Assembly (NCBI GenBank): GCA_944390195.1
Contig: CALXOZ010000012.1
Span: 1 to 59,747, forward strand
From: an uncultured Alphaproteobacteria bacterium
GTDB lineage: Bacteria; Pseudomonadota; Alphaproteobacteria; CAAGCB01; CAG-977
DNA: 59,747 nt
Direction: 5' to 3'
Shown here piece by piece: positions 1-41,133 of the stretch (within the stretch, counting starts at the first letter, position 1; each line of letters opens with the position of its first letter). The translations under genes and the position numbers were made by a program. Under the pieces are notes generated by a model that was not told the DNA's origin, made no database searches, and was given only the letters and a program-made list of their open reading frames with translations.

Positions 1-108
1 GCCCAGAAAGGTTGTTCGCTTTCGCTCACCCCTATGGGGTCGCCTGACGGCGTCGCTCCCTTCGGTCGCCGAACTCTCCCCGAGAGTTCAAATCTTTGGA
101 CTTACTTC

Positions 109-147
109 AAAAAAAACACCCCGCTCTAATGAACGGGGCTGTTTTTT
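109..147 (-). terminator. Second-copy intrinsic terminator downstream of tRNA-Arg
   Basis: Hairpin with arms CCCCG (119-123) and CGGGG (134-138), followed on the minus strand by a run of eight T's. It is a duplicate of the terminator at 263-300, inside the tandem repeat. Confidence 0.6.
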
Positions 148-262
148 TGGCGCGCCCAGAAAGGTTGTTCGCTTTCGCTCACCCCTATGGGGTCGCCTGA
201 CGGCGTCGCTCCCTTCGGTCGCCGAACTCTTCCCCGAGAGTTCAAATCTTTGGGCTTACTTC

Positions 263-300
263 AAAAAAAACACCCCGCTCTAATGAACGGGGCTGTTTTT
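263..300 (-). terminator. Intrinsic terminator of tRNA-Arg
   Basis: Hairpin CCCCG (273-277) with CGGGG (288-292), then an eight-T run on the minus strand, directly after the encoded CCA of tRNA-Arg. Confidence 0.7.
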
Positions 301-302
301 TT

Positions 303-379
303 TGGCGCGCCCAGAAAGATTCGAACTCTCAGCCTTCTGATCCGTAGTCAGATGCTCTATCCAGTTGAGCTATGGGCGC
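303..379 (-). tRNA. tRNA-Arg(ACG)
   Basis: Read on the minus strand, the sequence folds as a tRNA: acceptor arms GCGCCCA (379-373) and TGGGCGC (313-307), D arm with GCTC...GAGC, anticodon stem TCTGA/TCAGA around loop CTACGGA giving anticodon ACG, T arm with GAGAG TTCGAAT CTTTC (one weak pair). Discriminator G, and CCA is encoded in the gene. The ACG anticodon would be read as inosine-CG in bacteria. Its 3' end is repeated in the adjacent tandem array. Confidence 0.93.
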
Positions 380-25930: not shown

Positions 25931-26589
25931 AAAACAGATCGTAAAGGTCTTCCTAAAAACATCACTTCTTTTCCGGAACTTTTGACGTTTTCATTTCCCA
26001 CTTCCCATTATCGCCCTGTTACCAATAATAAGCTTCAAAACCAACTGCGACAACCGCTTTCCAAAACAGATCGTAAAGGTCTTCCTAAAAACATCACTTT
26101 TTTTCCGGAACCTTTGACGCTTTCATTTCCCACTTCCCATTATCGCCCTGTTACCAATAATAAGCTTCAAAACCAGCTACGACAACCGCTTTCCAAAACA
26201 GATCGTAAAGGTCTTCCTAAAAACATCACTTCTTTTCCGGAACCTTTGACGCTTTCATTTCCCACTTCCCATTATCGCCCTGTTGCCAATAATAAGCTTC
26301 AAAACCGGCTGCGACAACCGCTTTCCAAAACAGATCGTAAGGGTCTTCCTAAAAACATCACTTTTTTCCGGAACTTTTGACGTTTTCATTTCCCACTTCC
26401 CATTATCGCCCTGTTACCAATAATAAGCTTCGAAACCAACTGCGACAACCGCTTTCCAAAACAGATCGTAAAGGTCTTCCTAAAAACATCACTTTTTTTC
26501 CGGAACCTTTGACGCTTTCATTTCCCACCTTCCATTATCGCCCTGTTGCCAATAATAAGCTTCAAAACCAGCTGCGACAACCGCTTTCC
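25931..26589. repeat. Five-copy 132-bp tandem array copied from the holC 3' end
   Basis: Units start at 25931, 26063, 26195, 26327 and 26458 (period 132, one unit 131). The rightmost unit is the real 3' end of holC plus ~32 bases beyond its stop; the other four are copies of that stretch. On the minus strand each unit encodes the last ~32 residues of the chi subunit (KAVVA.GFEAYYW..., EMK.SKVPEKK), but most copies have TAA in place of the CAA after YYW, so they are not extra domains. Because 132 is a multiple of three, an open frame runs through the copies on the plus strand (25982-26380, 26377-26643), giving an artefactual 44-residue repeat protein. The units differ at only a few bases, so the expansion is recent. 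Confidence 0.93.
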
Positions 26590-26956
26590 AAAGCTGTCTT
26601 GCGTTTTGCAACGACGCATTATCTTGTCCGTCGAACAAATTAAAGCAACGTTCGAACGAACTGATTTCCTCCAATATGGCTCCGTCAAGCAACATGACAA
26701 ACTGCGCTTGATTCAGGTTTTCGTCTTGAGTCGTAATCAAAATTGGCTGATCTGCAACATCGGTGTCTTTATCAGAGCCATGCGGCAACCAGGAATCCGT
26801 TCTAAACGTCCATAATAAATTATTGACATATTCCGCCTTTTCCGGCAGTTCCGTTTTTATAAGCAATCTTTTCCCGCCGGCATACACTTTTTGAACTAAA
26901 GCTGGCACGATTTGATCAAAAGACAAATGTCTGAGATGGTAAAAATCAACCCGCAT
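26489..26956 (-). CDS. holC: DNA polymerase III chi subunit
   Basis: A 155-residue protein of the clamp-loader complex that contacts SSB. Family pattern is clear: VDFYHLRHLSFDQIVPALVQKVYAGGKRLLIKT, YVNNLLWTF, DSWLPHGSDKD, DQPILITT, GAILEEISSFERCFNLFDG and the C-terminal LWKAVVAAGFEAYYWQQGDNGRWEMK. ATG 26956 is used; an upstream TTG at 26965 is in frame. It is the last gene of a leftward run after the deg protease (12 bases away). Its 3' end lies inside the 132-bp tandem array and is the intact parent of the other copies. Confidence 0.92.
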   Translation of the reverse strand: MRVDFYHLRHLSFDQIVPALVQKVYAGGKRLLIKTELPEKAEYVNNLLWTFRTDSWLPHGSDKDTDVADQPILITTQDENLNQAQFVMLLDGAILEEISSFERCFNLFDGQDNASLQNARQLWKAVVAAGFEAYYWQQGDNGRWEMKASKVPEKK

Positions 26957-32465: not shown

Positions 32466-32497
32466 AATCAAAACTTATAAAGCTGTTTCTCAATCTC

Positions 32498-32526
32498 TTG
32501 CTTTTATAATAACTTTCTTCTATAAT
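32498..32526 (+). promoter_or_regulatory. Sigma-70 promoter of the tmRNA gene
   Basis: TTGCTT (32498-32503), 17-bp spacer, perfect TATAAT (32521-32526). Predicted transcription start near 32533, at the base of the first hairpin of the tmRNA precursor. Confidence 0.78.
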
Positions 32527-32532
32527 AAAAAA

Positions 32533-32823
32533 TGCCGGCTTCAACCGGCTATGATGCTAAACACCCTATGGAATAGGCGTAGCGGACCCGGGGGCGGTAC
32601 CCGGCGTCTCCACCAACGGGGACGAAACAGGATCGACGCGCGTAGTAAAGGTAGGATCTGCATCCGGCATTGTACCACCGTTATCGGGCTGTAATTTTAA
32701 ATGCGAATGATAATCGCACTCAGGTCGCTCTCGCTGCGTAATGCGGTCGGAGCACCGAACTTAATCCCTGAGGCTTGAGCGCTTCAGGTGGGGCGGGGAC
32801 TTGCCTAGCAACAGAAGTGTCCC
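32533..32823 (+). ncRNA. ssrA: Two-piece (circularly permuted) tmRNA
   Basis: Transfer-messenger RNA for rescue of stalled ribosomes. The gene is permuted as in alphaproteobacteria: the acceptor piece comes first, with a T-arm stem CCGGG/CCCGG and 3' strand CGTCTCC + A + CCA ending at 32615, followed after only two bases by the 5' strand of the coding piece, GGGGACGAAACAGGATCGACG from 32618. GGGGACG and CGTCTCC pair as the acceptor stem (one G-U). The coding piece carries the tag frame at 32703-32741 (ANDNRTQVALAA, then TAA) and ends in a hairpin and T-run. A strong promoter precedes it and sspB, the gene for the tag-binding ClpXP adaptor, follows 37 bases later. Confidence 0.95.
32703..32741 (+). 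other. tmRNA proteolysis-tag reading frame
   Basis: Codons from GCG 32703 read ANDNRTQVALAA and stop at TAA 32739-32741; with the alanine from the charged tmRNA the tag would be A-ANDNRTQVALAA. The final ALAA is the usual ClpX/ClpA recognition end; the ANDN start is conserved in proteobacteria, while RTQV in the middle is unlike the Caulobacter tag. Confidence 0.9.
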
Positions 32824-32836
32824 TTTATTTTTTTAA
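32796..32836 (+). terminator. Terminator at the tmRNA 3' end
   Basis: GGGAC (32796-32800) pairs with GTCCC (32819-32823), with extra pairing through ACTT/AAGT, followed by TTTATTTTTTT. The hairpin may double as part of the last structural element of the coding piece. Confidence 0.6.
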
Positions 32837-35157: not shown

Positions 35158-35499
35158 TTAAGGAATTAAAATAGAACGTTCTTTACAATCAAAAGTGGCT
35201 CGACGAAAACCGTGTTTGTTCGTTAAACGCATATCCACTAATACAGTATCCCTTCCGTTTCCTTCGCAAAAACGACGGGCATGATCCGCCAATTGAGATA
35301 AACGGATATTTTGATCATTGTATTCATAAGCAATTCTTTTTTGTTTGGCTTCCACAATTCTGATATCTTCGGTTTGCAATATCAACAAGTCGCTATTAAT
35401 AGATGTTTCCAATACCAACGGGACTTTTGTATCTGGCACTTTTTGAAAAGCGCATGCCGTCAAAAAACATAAAGTTGCAACACAAATCAGGTATTTCAT
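35158..35499 (-). CDS. Small lipoprotein of unknown function
   Basis: A 113-residue lipoprotein with lipobox FLTAC (Cys16). The mature part shows a helical middle (DIRIVEAKQKRIAYEYNDQNIRLSQLADHARRFCEGNG) and two further cysteines (FCEG, FDCKE) that could form a disulfide. I do not recognise the family. Its start overlaps the stop of the next upstream gene by 4 bases (35496-35499), so it is the last gene of a four-gene leftward cluster of secreted proteins. Confidence 0.72.
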   Translation of the reverse strand: MKYLICVATLCFLTACAFQKVPDTKVPLVLETSINSDLLILQTEDIRIVEAKQKRIAYEYNDQNIRLSQLADHARRFCEGNGRDTVLVDMRLTNKHGFRRATFDCKERSILIP

Positions 35500-36026
35500 T
35501 GTTTCGTAACCGCCTTTTTTTCATCTTGTTCTGCTTGAATTTTTTCCGCTAACGCTTCCAGTCTTTTCATCCGGTTTCTTTTCACTTCTTTACGTTGCGC
35601 CTTTGCACTGTCGTACTGATTGCGTGCTTCAATAACATCTTTTTCATTTTGAGGAATCCCTTTTTCCACATCAACAGTGTATGTGTAAATTTTGTCTCCG
35701 TTTTGATTGAACACATCAAAAACAACATTATCACGATTAATGGTAATAACAGGTTCTCCATCTTTGTTTTTCATCGTTACGCCACGATTTTTAAAGCGTT
35801 CTTCAACTGTTTGAATCAAGTATTGCTTGATTTCACCTTCACTTCTTTTGCGCAACACGCGTCCGGTTTGATCTCGTTCGTAAATCAAATCCCCTAATTC
35901 ACCCATTTCAGAACACCCCGAAAAAGCGGCATTTTTCCCGTCAAGCCCGCCAGAGCACACCGCAAAAGCTTGCGGAACCGATAAAAAAAGGAATCCTAAA
36001 ATCAAAATTGCATACCTCATCTTCAC
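35496..36026 (-). CDS. Secreted protein of unknown function
   Basis: A 176-residue protein with a signal peptide ending at ~22 (PQAFA). Two cysteines close to the mature N-terminus (VCSGG, SGCSE) could form a disulfide. The middle has a beta-like segment (VTMKNKDGEPVITINRDNVVFDVFNQNGDKIYTY), and the C-terminal ~55 residues are a highly charged helix (coiled coil). Family not recognised. Directly abuts the upstream 36027 gene (no gap). Confidence 0.7.
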   Translation of the reverse strand: MKMRYAILILGFLFLSVPQAFAVCSGGLDGKNAAFSGCSEMGELGDLIYERDQTGRVLRKRSEGEIKQYLIQTVEERFKNRGVTMKNKDGEPVITINRDNVVFDVFNQNGDKIYTYTVDVEKGIPQNEKDVIEARNQYDSAKAQRKEVKRNRMKRLEALAEKIQAEQDEKKAVTKQ

Positions 36027-36428
36027 CTAACCCCCATCTTTTTCAAAAGTAATACGATTCATAATATCTTGTTTACGTTTATCACTCAGTTTATCAAATT
36101 CCGGATTTTCAACATCAAAATTCAGCACTTTGTCTTCATCTTTTTTCTGAAAGACTTTTATTCCCGTTTGCTGAATTTTGGAAGGCTTATCTTCTTGCTG
36201 TCGATCCGGCTTAAACGATTCATCTTTTTGGTTTTCATCCGCATTGGCATCTGGAGTCTCATCCGGAGCTGTAAAAGCAGGTTGGCGCGGAACCGCCACC
36301 GTCTCTGGTTTAGGTTGATACGCTTTAAAACCACGCTGGCGACTGTAAGCACGAACATCAAACGGTTGTGCCGACACCGGTATCGAAAAAAGCATTTCCA
36401 ATATAACAAAACAAATGACTACACGCAT
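36027..36428 (-). CDS. Secreted protein with DVRAYSRQRGFKAYQ motif (copy 1)
   Basis: A 133-residue exported protein. Signal peptide ~1-20 (SIPVSA), and then the mature N-terminus QPFDVRAYSRQRGFKAYQPKP; the stretch DVRAYSRQRGFKAYQ is identical to that of its neighbour at 36438. The remainder is Asp/Glu/Lys/Pro-rich and disordered, ending in the helix PEFDKLSDKRKQDIMNRI. No known family. Part of the leftward cluster 36755-35158. Confidence 0.72.
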   Translation of the reverse strand: MRVVICFVILEMLFSIPVSAQPFDVRAYSRQRGFKAYQPKPETVAVPRQPAFTAPDETPDANADENQKDESFKPDRQQEDKPSKIQQTGIKVFQKKDEDKVLNFDVENPEFDKLSDKRKQDIMNRITFEKDGG

Positions 36429-36437
36429 TTTCTTCCT

Positions 36438-36755
36438 TTAAATATCAGGTTTTACATGAGGGTTGTTCTTAATATATTCTTGCATTTCTTCGGTTTGATC
36501 CGCTTTTTCATTACGAACGGGCATTTGTGCTGATTCATCTACAACTGCCTTTTGTTGACTTTCCTGCAACAAACTATTTGCCGGACTATCCGGTTTAACC
36601 GGTTGTGCAACAGGCATACCGTATGGTTTGCCTTGATATGCCTTAAAACCGCGTTGACGGCTGTAAGCGCGGACATCGATCACCTGAGCCATAGAAGGGA
36701 CGCTGCCACAAACAACCAAAAAAAATCCTAAAATCAAAAATTTCCTTATCATCAA
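36438..36755 (-). CDS. Secreted protein with DVRAYSRQRGFKAYQ motif (copy 2)
   Basis: A 105-residue exported protein, first gene of the leftward cluster. Signal peptide ~1-23 (VPSMAQ), then VIDVRAYSRQRGFKAYQGKP, followed by a Gln/Ser/Pro-rich disordered tail ending NNPHVKPDI. The motif is placed at the mature N-terminus in both copies, while the tails do not align, so selection seems to be on the motif. The ATG has a possible purine-rich site (AAGGACG). Confidence 0.72.
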   Translation of the reverse strand: MMIRKFLILGFFLVVCGSVPSMAQVIDVRAYSRQRGFKAYQGKPYGMPVAQPVKPDSPANSLLQESQQKAVVDESAQMPVRNEKADQTEEMQEYIKNNPHVKPDI

Positions 36756-36858
36756 CGCGTCCTTTTTTTATATTTTAACATTTATTTTCAAAAAAATTCA
36801 ACAAAAGCCTTTCATTATGATATAGTAGCATGTTTTTTATTTTTATTCGGATTAAGCT

Positions 36859-37680
36859 ATGGGTAATAATGTGAATTTTTTTGAACGGTTAAAAGTTGTT
36901 TTATTTTCCTATACGGAAAAAGCAAAAAATGTTCTGTTTAACATAAAAAATTCAAAAAATTTTCAAAAATTGGCAGAAAAATGCAAGTGGAAAAATGTTT
37001 CCCCCCATTATCAAAACGCGAAAAGAATACTTGCCAATTTTACAACAAAATATCCCAAGACCGCCGCATTCATCTATGTTTGTTTATTTTGTTCGTTTTC
37101 CATTTGTTTTTTAGATGAGCCTTTCGCTTTAGCCGGCATGAACTCTGAACAAGACAGCCTCTTTTATCACTTGGCGGAACTCAACCCTTCGGTATGGTGG
37201 TTCGTCATATTAATTGCTTTATGGTTGATTTACATGGCTATCGCCGGTTTGTCATTGACAACGGATCTGTTTGAAAAAAATCTGGAAAAAGCCCGTTGCG
37301 TCTTGTTTATCCTTTTTACTTTGTCTCTTTCATCCCTGTTGACTTTGGTTTTGAATATTTTAATCGGTCGTTATCCTCCGGAATACATGGAAACAATGCA
37401 AATTTACGGCTTTTCCGCTTTCAGGTTCCGTGTCGCCGAAATCTCTTTCCCCAGCTTTGCCACTCAAAGCTTATGGGCTGTCATCGTTTCCTTTGCAAGC
37501 TTTGTGCCGCGCTTTGCAAAGCTGTTGTTTGCTTTTGCCTTGTTGATGACTTTATCTCTTGTTATGACGGCTCATTGTTTCATCAGCGATGCCGTTATGG
37601 GAGCTTATATCGGAATCATGATGTATCATGTCGCCCAATGGATCGTTTCAGATAAAAATATGCCGTTAATCACTATTTAA
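36859..37680 (+). CDS. PAP2-like membrane protein with divergent active site
   Basis: A 273-residue protein with a basic N-terminal ~65 residues and about six transmembrane segments. Topology and spaced motifs resemble PAP2 lipid phosphatases: LVLNILIGRYPP (for KxxxxxxRP), ISFPSFATQS (for PSGH) and MTAHCFISDAVMGAYIG (for SRxxxxxHxxxD). The His of PSGH is replaced (PSFAT), and the SR of motif 3 reads MT, so catalysis is doubtful, although the last His/Asp pair remains. A weak promoter-like pair TTCAAC (36797) and TATAGT (36821) precedes it. It sits opposite to, and between, the secreted-protein genes. Confidence 0.68.
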   Translation: MGNNVNFFERLKVVLFSYTEKAKNVLFNIKNSKNFQKLAEKCKWKNVSPHYQNAKRILANFTTKYPKTAAFIYVCLFCSFSICFLDEPFALAGMNSEQDSLFYHLAELNPSVWWFVILIALWLIYMAIAGLSLTTDLFEKNLEKARCVLFILFTLSLSSLLTLVLNILIGRYPPEYMETMQIYGFSAFRFRVAEISFPSFATQSLWAVIVSFASFVPRFAKLLFAFALLMTLSLVMTAHCFISDAVMGAYIGIMMYHVAQWIVSDKNMPLITI

Positions 37681-37682
37681 TC

Positions 37683-38330
37683 CTATTCGTCCAGCACTTG
37701 TGCCAGAACGTCTCGATTCAATTTGATCAACTCATACTCATCTGAAGACACAGGAGCTTTCACAGCCGTCGCTGAACGGATGGTATGAATTGTGTCAATA
37801 TACCGGTCTTTCATCTGACGCTTCTGCTCCAAAGTCAAATTTTTATTTTCTTCCAATTGGCGAATCTGACGTTCAACGTGTTTTAACAAATTTGTTCGCT
37901 TCGTTTCCTGTTCCAAAACCGCAAGTGTCGTACGAAACTTTCTTTCCAGCAAGAAAAAGCGATCTGTCGCCCAACCGTGATCGTCCATCCATTGAATGAC
38001 CTCCGGTGGATAATCTGCAGGATTATCCACCCCCAAATAAGCAACAGCCTTATATTGATTCCCGTCCGATTTCAACCAATGAGAATATTTTTTCCAATCG
38101 CGGACGAATAATTGCAACTCGTTATCCGTAACCGGAGCAACGGCATCTATATCGTGTTGCAACAAAGCTGAAGCATAAACAGGAGGTTTCTTTATTTTCT
38201 TATTTTTTTCTGAAAAATCCAAACTTGAAGTATCCATTACAGAATAACTCTGCGCCATTCCGGAAACAGGCAAAAATCCCACCGCAAACACAGCAACCAA
38301 AACTCTTATTTTGCCAGATATGTCCTTCAT
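37683..38330 (-). CDS. Secreted protein of unknown function with helical C-terminus
   Basis: A 215-residue exported protein: signal peptide ~1-26 (PVSGMAQ), a Lys-rich linker, then DNELQLFVRDWKKYSHWLKSDGNQYKAVAYLGVDNPADYPPEVIQWMDDHGWATDRFFLLERKF-type helical region (residues ~85-150, broken here into parts) and a coiled-coil C-terminus (TKRTNLLKHVERQIRQLEENK, LTLEQKRQMKDRYIDTIHTI). The pattern resembles uncharacterised helical periplasmic proteins but I cannot name a family. Divergent from nadK, convergent with the PAP2-like gene (2-base gap). Confidence 0.7.
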   Translation of the reverse strand: MKDISGKIRVLVAVFAVGFLPVSGMAQSYSVMDTSSLDFSEKNKKIKKPPVYASALLQHDIDAVAPVTDNELQLFVRDWKKYSHWLKSDGNQYKAVAYLGVDNPADYPPEVIQWMDDHGWATDRFFLLERKFRTTLAVLEQETKRTNLLKHVERQIRQLEENKNLTLEQKRQMKDRYIDTIHTIRSATAVKAPVSSDEYELIKLNRDVLAQVLDE

Positions 38331-40314: not shown

Positions 40315-41133
40315 TTACAAACACGGCAATTCCGGCAACCGCCTTAATTCGGTCAAGGTCGACACCAAACGGTATGAATTGAAATTCTGAACGATTTTAT
40401 CGCTGATCCCGTTATCATAATAGTACAAGGACACTTCATAATAAGGAGTGCCGTCAGGAAGATCGGTTGTTTTGAATTCTTCAAAAAAAGCTGTATCAAA
40501 CCGGTATGCTTTTTTTCCAAGAATTAAATCAACGTCCCCCAGAACACTGTCCGAATGAAAACGATCCGGTATTGAAATAAAAGTGTTCATTGAATACAGA
40601 GCTTCCGGACGTGTGCCGTCATAAACATACACGGACACATTCCGTTCTGCACTGCTCGCCGATTCCAACAAGCGTAATGTCTGCTGGACGGGAAACAAGA
40701 CATTCTGAGGAAAAACCGCCTCCGATTGAACCGGATAAGACAAACGCAAAACTTTCTTATTATCTTTGCATGCAGCCGATCCTGCAAGACTTTTCCTGTC
40801 TTTGCCTTTTTCACGAACAAAAACTTCAAAATCAAACAAACAACCGTCCGCACTTTCCCGCGTCGTCTGTTTCCAGTTGGTCGTATCCAAACCGGATAAT
40901 TCATAACCGATATCCAATGAAAAAACAGATTCCGTACGCCATTGTCCGCAAACTTTTTGAATACTGTAGCGCATTTTCCCTTTAGCGCTGACGACACTGG
41001 CGGCTCCTCCCGCCGTAGAAGCCAAAGCTATGTCATAAACGGCCTGATGTGAAACCAGTCGTTCTTCCGAATGTACGGGCAATGCTCCTGAAAACAAAGC
41101 ACAACAACAGAAAATTTTGAAAGACAATCTCAT
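40315..41133 (-). CDS. eipB: EipB family cell-envelope integrity protein (DUF1849)
   Basis: A 272-residue periplasmic protein. Signal peptide ~1-22, then SHQAVYDIALASTAGGAASVVSAKGKMRYSIQKVCGQW-type sequence (split by family positions: HxAVYD near residue 29, KGKMRYS near 51), TRESADGCLFDFE and KKAYRFDTAFFEEFKTTD. EipB of Brucella is a beta-spiral protein that keeps the envelope intact, with one conserved disulfide joining the N- and C-terminal parts; here Cys62 and Cys271 sit at equivalent places. Lies downstream of the TonB-like gene on the same strand. Confidence 0.85.
   Translation of the reverse strand: MRLSFKIFCCCALFSGALPVHSEERLVSHQAVYDIALASTAGGAASVVSAKGKMRYSIQKVCGQWRTESVFSLDIGYELSGLDTTNWKQTTRESADGCLFDFEVFVREKGKDRKSLAGSAACKDNKKVLRLSYPVQSEAVFPQNVLFPVQQTLRLLESASSAERNVSVYVYDGTRPEALYSMNTFISIPDRFHSDSVLGDVDLILGKKAYRFDTAFFEEFKTTDLPDGTPYYEVSLYYYDNGISDKIVQNFNSYRLVSTLTELRRLPELPCL

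Follow-up and report, generated by a model that had tools for sequence, protein, structure and literature searches.

Two described systems bear comparison with the locus considered here. In alphaproteobacteria, outer-membrane proteins that are linked to the wall by L,D-transpeptidases share a motif right where the mature protein begins, with alanyl-aspartyl as the signal (PMC10787603), and in Salmonella the protein YecR forms a belt on the flagellar L-ring (PMC11756786, PMC12222027). Here we describe an operon of four small, putatively exported proteins on a 59,747-nucleotide stretch of DNA, referred to below as the window, from an uncultured alphaproteobacterium (assembly GCA_944390195.1, contig CALXOZ010000012.1). 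Two of these proteins are tandem paralogues that share a 15-residue peptide. The operon core is found in every genome of the family that we examined and yet in none of the protein libraries that we used, and it is probably part of the cell envelope, unstudied so far, in one family of rumen and gut alphaproteobacteria.

A four-gene operon encoding putative envelope proteins

The operon consists of four tightly packed minus-strand open reading frames (ORFs) that run from 36755 to 35158 and are designated by their lower coordinates:

36438..36755, minus strand: p36438, putatively exported, 105 aa; motif VIDVRAYSRQRGFKAYQ past the signal peptide, a variable linker, and a C-terminal tail EYIKNNPHVKPDI that runs up to the stop
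36027..36428, minus strand: p36027, putatively exported tandem paralogue, 133 aa, with the same 15-mer and its own conserved block IQQTGIKVFQKKDEDKVLNFDVENPEFDKL...RI
35496..36026, minus strand: p35496, putatively exported; Cys pair close to the start of the mature protein, small alpha/beta core, predicted C-terminal helix of ~50 residues
35158..35499, minus strand: p35158, predicted lipoprotein; lipobox LTAC with +2 Ala, domain predicted to fold as beta-beta-alpha-beta-beta, with a Cys where the helix ends and another in the final strand
36633..36677, minus strand: copy of the 15-residue motif within p36438
36315..36359, minus strand: copy of the 15-residue motif within p36027

The spacing is 9 bases between p36438 and p36027 and 0 bases between p36027 and p35496 if the latter starts with GTG at 36026 (6 bases if it starts with ATG at 36020), while the ORFs of p35496 and p35158 share 4 bases (ATGA). 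N-terminal export signals were recognized by eye on all four proteins and on p37683, which is encoded on the same strand beyond the plus-strand PAP2-like gene. A preliminary description of the locus had reported five exported minus-strand ORFs, four of them with overlaps or gaps of under 12 bases, and both statements hold.

The same description had regarded the proteins as members of no known family, and our searches agree for the operon: none of its four proteins scored above the curated cut-off in Pfam or NCBIfam, such that no curated family in the libraries used covers any of them. PADLOC gave no match for the four proteins at E up to 0.1, and a defense system was rejected on these grounds. 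Matches to PHROG were weak (best E 0.0033) and were treated as chance, leaving a phage origin rejected as well. Sequence searches of the PDB with all five alignments and the neighboring PAP2-like protein returned chance-level matches only.

Conservation and relocation of the operon core

Conservation was assessed in 12 genomes of the family, seven from the genus and five from other genera; the named relatives are metagenome assemblies from the rumen (roe deer, sheep, water buffalo) and horse feces, among others. Comparing all neighboring genes by tblastn, we found the order p36438-p36027-p35496-p35158, divergent PAP2-like gene, p37683, and NAD kinase in all seven genus genomes. Four of the five genomes from other genera retain the block, even though outside the genus the flanking genes (SspB, fumarase, RHH protein, HAD hydrolase, and EipB) have a different arrangement or are missing from the stretch examined. 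The gene order across 35158-36755, proposed earlier as a check, is thus kept in relatives and the genes are not scattered.

A single-sequence search with p36438 recovered the protein itself and its paralogue in 7/7 genus genomes and gave no match outside the genus, and a single-sequence scan of genome contigs with p36438 gave no match. A class-wide profile search with p35496, covering 385 genomes drawn evenly, returned only genus members plus two borderline short-segment matches (E 0.0025) that we treat as chance.

Exceptions to the common arrangement show which parts can come apart. We did not find p35496 in genomes G007 and G009, and G010 has a TerC-like gene on the opposite strand within the operon. 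In G009, p36438, p36027, and p35158 form a set at another location, next to two M16 peptidases, with the PAP2-like gene elsewhere and p37683 still accompanying the NAD kinase. This relocation reveals three separable modules: the operon core (present in 12/12 genomes), the PAP2-like gene, and p37683. The five-gene unit of the preliminary description was rejected on this basis, as p37683 tracks the NAD kinase, the PAP2-like gene can be unlinked, and p35496 is not found in two genomes. At the relocated site, the two M16 peptidases precede the operon and an acid-rich single-pass membrane protein without a Pfam match follows it (L083:5302-6441).

A shared peptide with distinct C-terminal blocks

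The 15-mer DVRAYSRQRGFKAYQ has the same sequence in both p36438 and p36027 and starts three residues past a plausible signal-peptidase site (putative cleavage contexts, with the site marked by a slash, SMA/QVI-DVRAY... and VSA/QPF-DVRAY...). The earlier claim of an identical 15-mer therefore stands, with its position, given as exactly the mature N-terminus, shifted by three residues. This likeness is not a product of chance: the two proteins match by blastp at E = 4e-14, driven by the motif, and in a profile-profile comparison at 98.6%, confined to the motif region. A degenerate DNA pattern of the motif gave 13 matches in the 12 family genomes, all inside the operon of the seven genus genomes (exactly two in six of these and one in the seventh), while a reversed control pattern gave none. 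The motif thus recurs beyond a single genome, and with at most two copies per genus genome it was rejected as a genome-wide tag. Outside the genus it loosens to [LIV]-[IV]-D-[VLM]-R.

The two copies in the window encode the same peptide with codons that differ at 8/15 positions, indicating that the peptide, not the DNA, is kept. On this codon comparison the shared peptide is under selection. The earlier picture of a conserved cluster of putative envelope proteins that carries a short conserved element is supported.

Beyond the motif, each protein has further conserved parts. Pairwise identity within the genus is 59-77% for the N-terminal motif, 63-86% for the p36438 tail, and 77-83% for the p36027 block (residues 91-110), compared with 10-20% for the linkers between them; the C-terminal blocks, which are distinct for the two proteins, have 54-86% pairwise identity overall. 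The preliminary description had the remainder of each protein disordered and unalignable, which is true of the linkers and fails for these blocks. The strictest element family-wide is the invariant YI..[NH]P...PD tail in which p36438 ends, where Y94, I95, P99, P103, and D104 are invariant in 12/12 family members.

The Cys pair of p35496 is either present or absent as a pair across relatives, as expected for a periplasmic disulfide. The model of this protein combines a small alpha/beta core with a helix of ~50 residues, and a fold search with it returned single long helices as top matches (Z 5.5), which are uninformative, and no closer fold. Lpp-like wall tethering through a C-terminal Lys of p35496 was considered and dropped: most relatives end in K, the window copy in Q.

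A candidate envelope assembly

Our preferred reading, plausible yet just short of probable, is that the operon encodes a lineage-specific envelope assembly anchored by a lipoprotein, where the tandem disordered proteins use one motif to dock on a shared partner and reach different partners with their C-termini. The core would comprise the disordered periplasmic proteins p36438 and p36027 and the outer-membrane lipoprotein p35158, usually together with periplasmic p35496, and a divergently encoded, catalytically dead PAP2-like inner-membrane protein would be the usual addition. Through the shared peptide, a putative short linear motif, both disordered proteins would bind the same partner (p35158, p35496, or the PAP2-like protein), and their distinct conserved C-terminal ends would bind different partners, so that the pair may act as tethers. 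In favor of this assembly we count the tandem motif genes of all seven genus genomes, the gene order kept despite rearranged flanks, the joint relocation in G009, the codon differences (8/15) behind the identical window 15-mers, and the closer residue match of the two motifs within than between genomes, along with the conserved ends with variable linkers, the lipobox and conserved domain of p35158, the coupled Cys pair of p35496, and the conserved divergent promoter region. The preliminary description had spoken of an envelope or export system; the envelope fits, and a protein export system lacks support, as neither the unit nor its conserved neighborhood contains a transporter or secretin gene.

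Several observations weigh against such an assembly. The family sample is small (12 genomes), and localization and cleavage sites were assigned by eye. In G007, G008, and G009, three of the five family genomes outside the genus, p36027 lacks the motif, and in G008 p36438 lacks it as well. The greater likeness of the two motifs within than between genomes, seen for residues (0.95% of pairings as good, seven genomes), also holds for DNA, where 0.06% of pairings are as good, a figure perhaps inflated by each genome's codon usage. The motif pair of G001 has zero synonymous differences, and gene conversion may explain part of the within-genome likeness, which is compatible with either a shared-partner constraint or partial gene conversion.

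The same data bear on the possibility that these small envelope proteins are co-transcribed but have no function in common, their shared motif stemming from an N-terminal region that was duplicated and underwent gene conversion. Such an origin would account for the within-genome likeness at the DNA level and is consistent with the loss of p35496, and of the motif from p36027, in some genomes. We nonetheless think it rather unlikely, since conversion alone does not explain an identical peptide whose codons differ at 8/15 positions in the window while the adjoining linkers have diverged, and the three core genes stay together at the different G009 site. Pure gene conversion was rejected as the source of the motif likeness, being insufficient for the window.

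A lipoprotein-anchored envelope assembly, if confirmed, would represent a further way of constructing the envelope, in a class for which connections from outer membrane to wall are still coming to light, and would offer a clear example of a short docking motif in the periplasm. A more specific version, in which p35158, the long-helix p35496, the linkers p36438 and p36027, and the PAP2-like anchor form a family-specific tether from the outer membrane to the wall or inner membrane that is unlike Lpp, Pal, and linked beta-barrels, is a long shot. At present the operon is a well-defined orphan module with a proposed mechanism.

The lipoprotein p35158 and the flagellar LP ring

Because its lipobox LTAC is followed by Ala at +2, p35158 probably sits in the outer membrane. 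AlphaFold2 predicts strands at residues 30-36 and 39-45, a helix at 51-63, and strands at 67-76 and 82-91, with a core pLDDT of about 90, and an alignment that includes a distant relative has 12 invariant residues, two of them Cys. The structure closest to this model is YecR of the Salmonella flagellar LP ring (7bgl_1; Z 6.8 over 64 residues at 3.0 A by VIA-align), though a structural Z below 8 may reflect merely a common arrangement; unrelated folds reach Z 5-5.8, and the small alpha/beta proteins PilO and EpsL about 5. The YecR likeness of the predicted fold is thus suggestive only.

Were this likeness to reflect function, p35158 would be a YecR-like belt round the L-ring, and the disordered proteins would decorate or link that belt as accessories of the flagellar LP ring. 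The top structural match is joined here by the lipoprotein nature of p35158 and its Cys positions (compared by eye), and flagellar genes are present in the family: FlgI was found in 11/12 genomes, and FlgH and FliF in 3/3 tested, including the one without a FlgI match. A flagellar role is nevertheless improbable. The Z score is below 8, Foldseek returned nothing below E 0.001 with the p35158 model, hhalign of the p35158 profile against E. coli YecR was not significant (probability 0.5%, E 0.11 over 12 columns), and the YecR family was not matched in Pfam scans. Moreover, no flagellar gene occurs among the conserved operon neighbors, and neither FlgH nor FliF was matched in G353, a genome with a distant p35158 relative.

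A class-wide profile search with p35158 gave only two distant matches outside the family. Distant relatives in families f48 and f51 and in L064 are lipoproteins, two of them encoded directly downstream of a different small exported protein. At L064:7342-8198 and L070:8886-9568, in other alphaproteobacteria, a distant p35158-like lipoprotein follows a small exported protein of another family (..ATLKAVVNYKI..), both beside the same kind of divergent upstream gene, and this lipoprotein and exported protein are possibly an equivalent pair.

A divergently encoded, predicted PAP2-like pseudoenzyme

Three further features adjoin the operon:

36756..36858, no strand: divergent intergenic region with promoter-like sites (alignment of seven genus genomes and consensus scan)
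36859..37680, plus strand: PAP2-superfamily membrane protein without both catalytic histidines (Pfam PF01569, 1.3e-7); usual divergent neighbor, not strictly in the unit
37683..38330, minus strand: p37683, putatively exported, beside the NAD kinase; outside the operon

The PAP2-like gene diverges from the operon and is convergent with p37683, which is followed by the NAD kinase. In the alignment of the seven genus genomes, a promoter-like site for the operon (TTGAAT-18-TAAAAT, 36801-36772, minus strand) and a TATAGT-type element for the PAP2-like gene are both conserved. A promoter-consensus scan of the region gave a site count not above that of shuffles, such that only the cross-species conservation carries weight. 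Given these conserved divergent sites between them, the operon and the PAP2-like gene are probably co-regulated.

PF01569 matches the PAP2-like protein over the whole domain (31.9 bits, cut-off 27.2), establishing membership in the PAP2 superfamily. When aligned to YbjG and PgpB, all 11 orthologues have replaced the histidines of PSGH and HxxxD and the Arg of SR; the catalytic positions read PSF[ADGS] (PYFG in one) and CFISD-type. The protein is thus a predicted pseudoenzyme, and an active PAP2 enzyme was rejected. A weak PADLOC match to mad8 (E 0.0015) over its N-terminal part was disregarded.

There is a slim chance that the module acts as a regulator of, or scaffold for, lipid or undecaprenyl-phosphate metabolism; the dead PAP2-like protein would then be a lipid-binding sensor whose periplasmic effectors are the operon products. 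The divergent gene with its conserved shared promoter region would suit such a role, as would the conservation of the protein through the family (32-57% identity) despite its loss of catalytic residues, but the gene is unlinked from the operon in G009. That the N-terminal motif serves to attach the proteins covalently to peptidoglycan is scarcely credible, for although it lies near the mature N-terminus, where the L,D-transpeptidase-linked alphaproteobacterial outer-membrane proteins have a conserved motif (PMC10787603), the predicted mature ends read Gln, Asp, Glu, or Arg and then V/P-[IVF]-D, not alanyl-aspartyl, and at 15 residues the element greatly exceeds that signal in length.

Other features of the window

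Weak relatives of p37683 occur in two other alphaproteobacterial families (L065, L066, L068, and L069), beside an NAD kinase and/or a HAD-type hydrolase; the protein represents a wider uncharacterized exported family with a W..Y..W...DRFF..E core.

Elsewhere in the window, ARAGORN identified a permuted (two-piece) alphaproteobacterial tmRNA with the tag ANDNRTQVALAA at 32494-32825 (plus strand), directly upstream of the SspB gene (32860). A tandem array at 25931-26592 contains five copies of a 132-base unit that are 94% alike; 132 is divisible by 3, and the array may be coding. Two copies of a 153-base repeat occupy the very start of the window (1-318), up to a tRNA-Arg gene (303-379), possibly as a contig-edge effect or a repeat element.

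Comparison with known systems

Four described systems were compared with the locus. EipB (DUF1849), an envelope-integrity protein that is likewise alphaproteobacterial and periplasmic, is encoded a few genes away at 40315-41133 and lies near the block in several relatives; its sequence is unrelated to the operon proteins, and it is a neighbor only. The PAP2 phosphatases YbjG and PgpB have their family match in common with the 36859 protein, whereas the catalytic His and Arg residues are theirs alone. The N-terminally peptidoglycan-linked outer-membrane proteins of Brucella and Agrobacterium are, like p36438 and p36027, alphaproteobacterial and exported and have a conserved element close to where the mature protein starts, but the proteins described here have no alanyl-aspartyl start and are far too short for beta-barrels. 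YecR (PDB 7bgl) resembles p35158 as a lipoprotein of ~110 aa with Cys residues, placed by eye, in the last strand and where the helix ends; p35158 differs in having no significant profile match to it and in being encoded in a four-gene operon.

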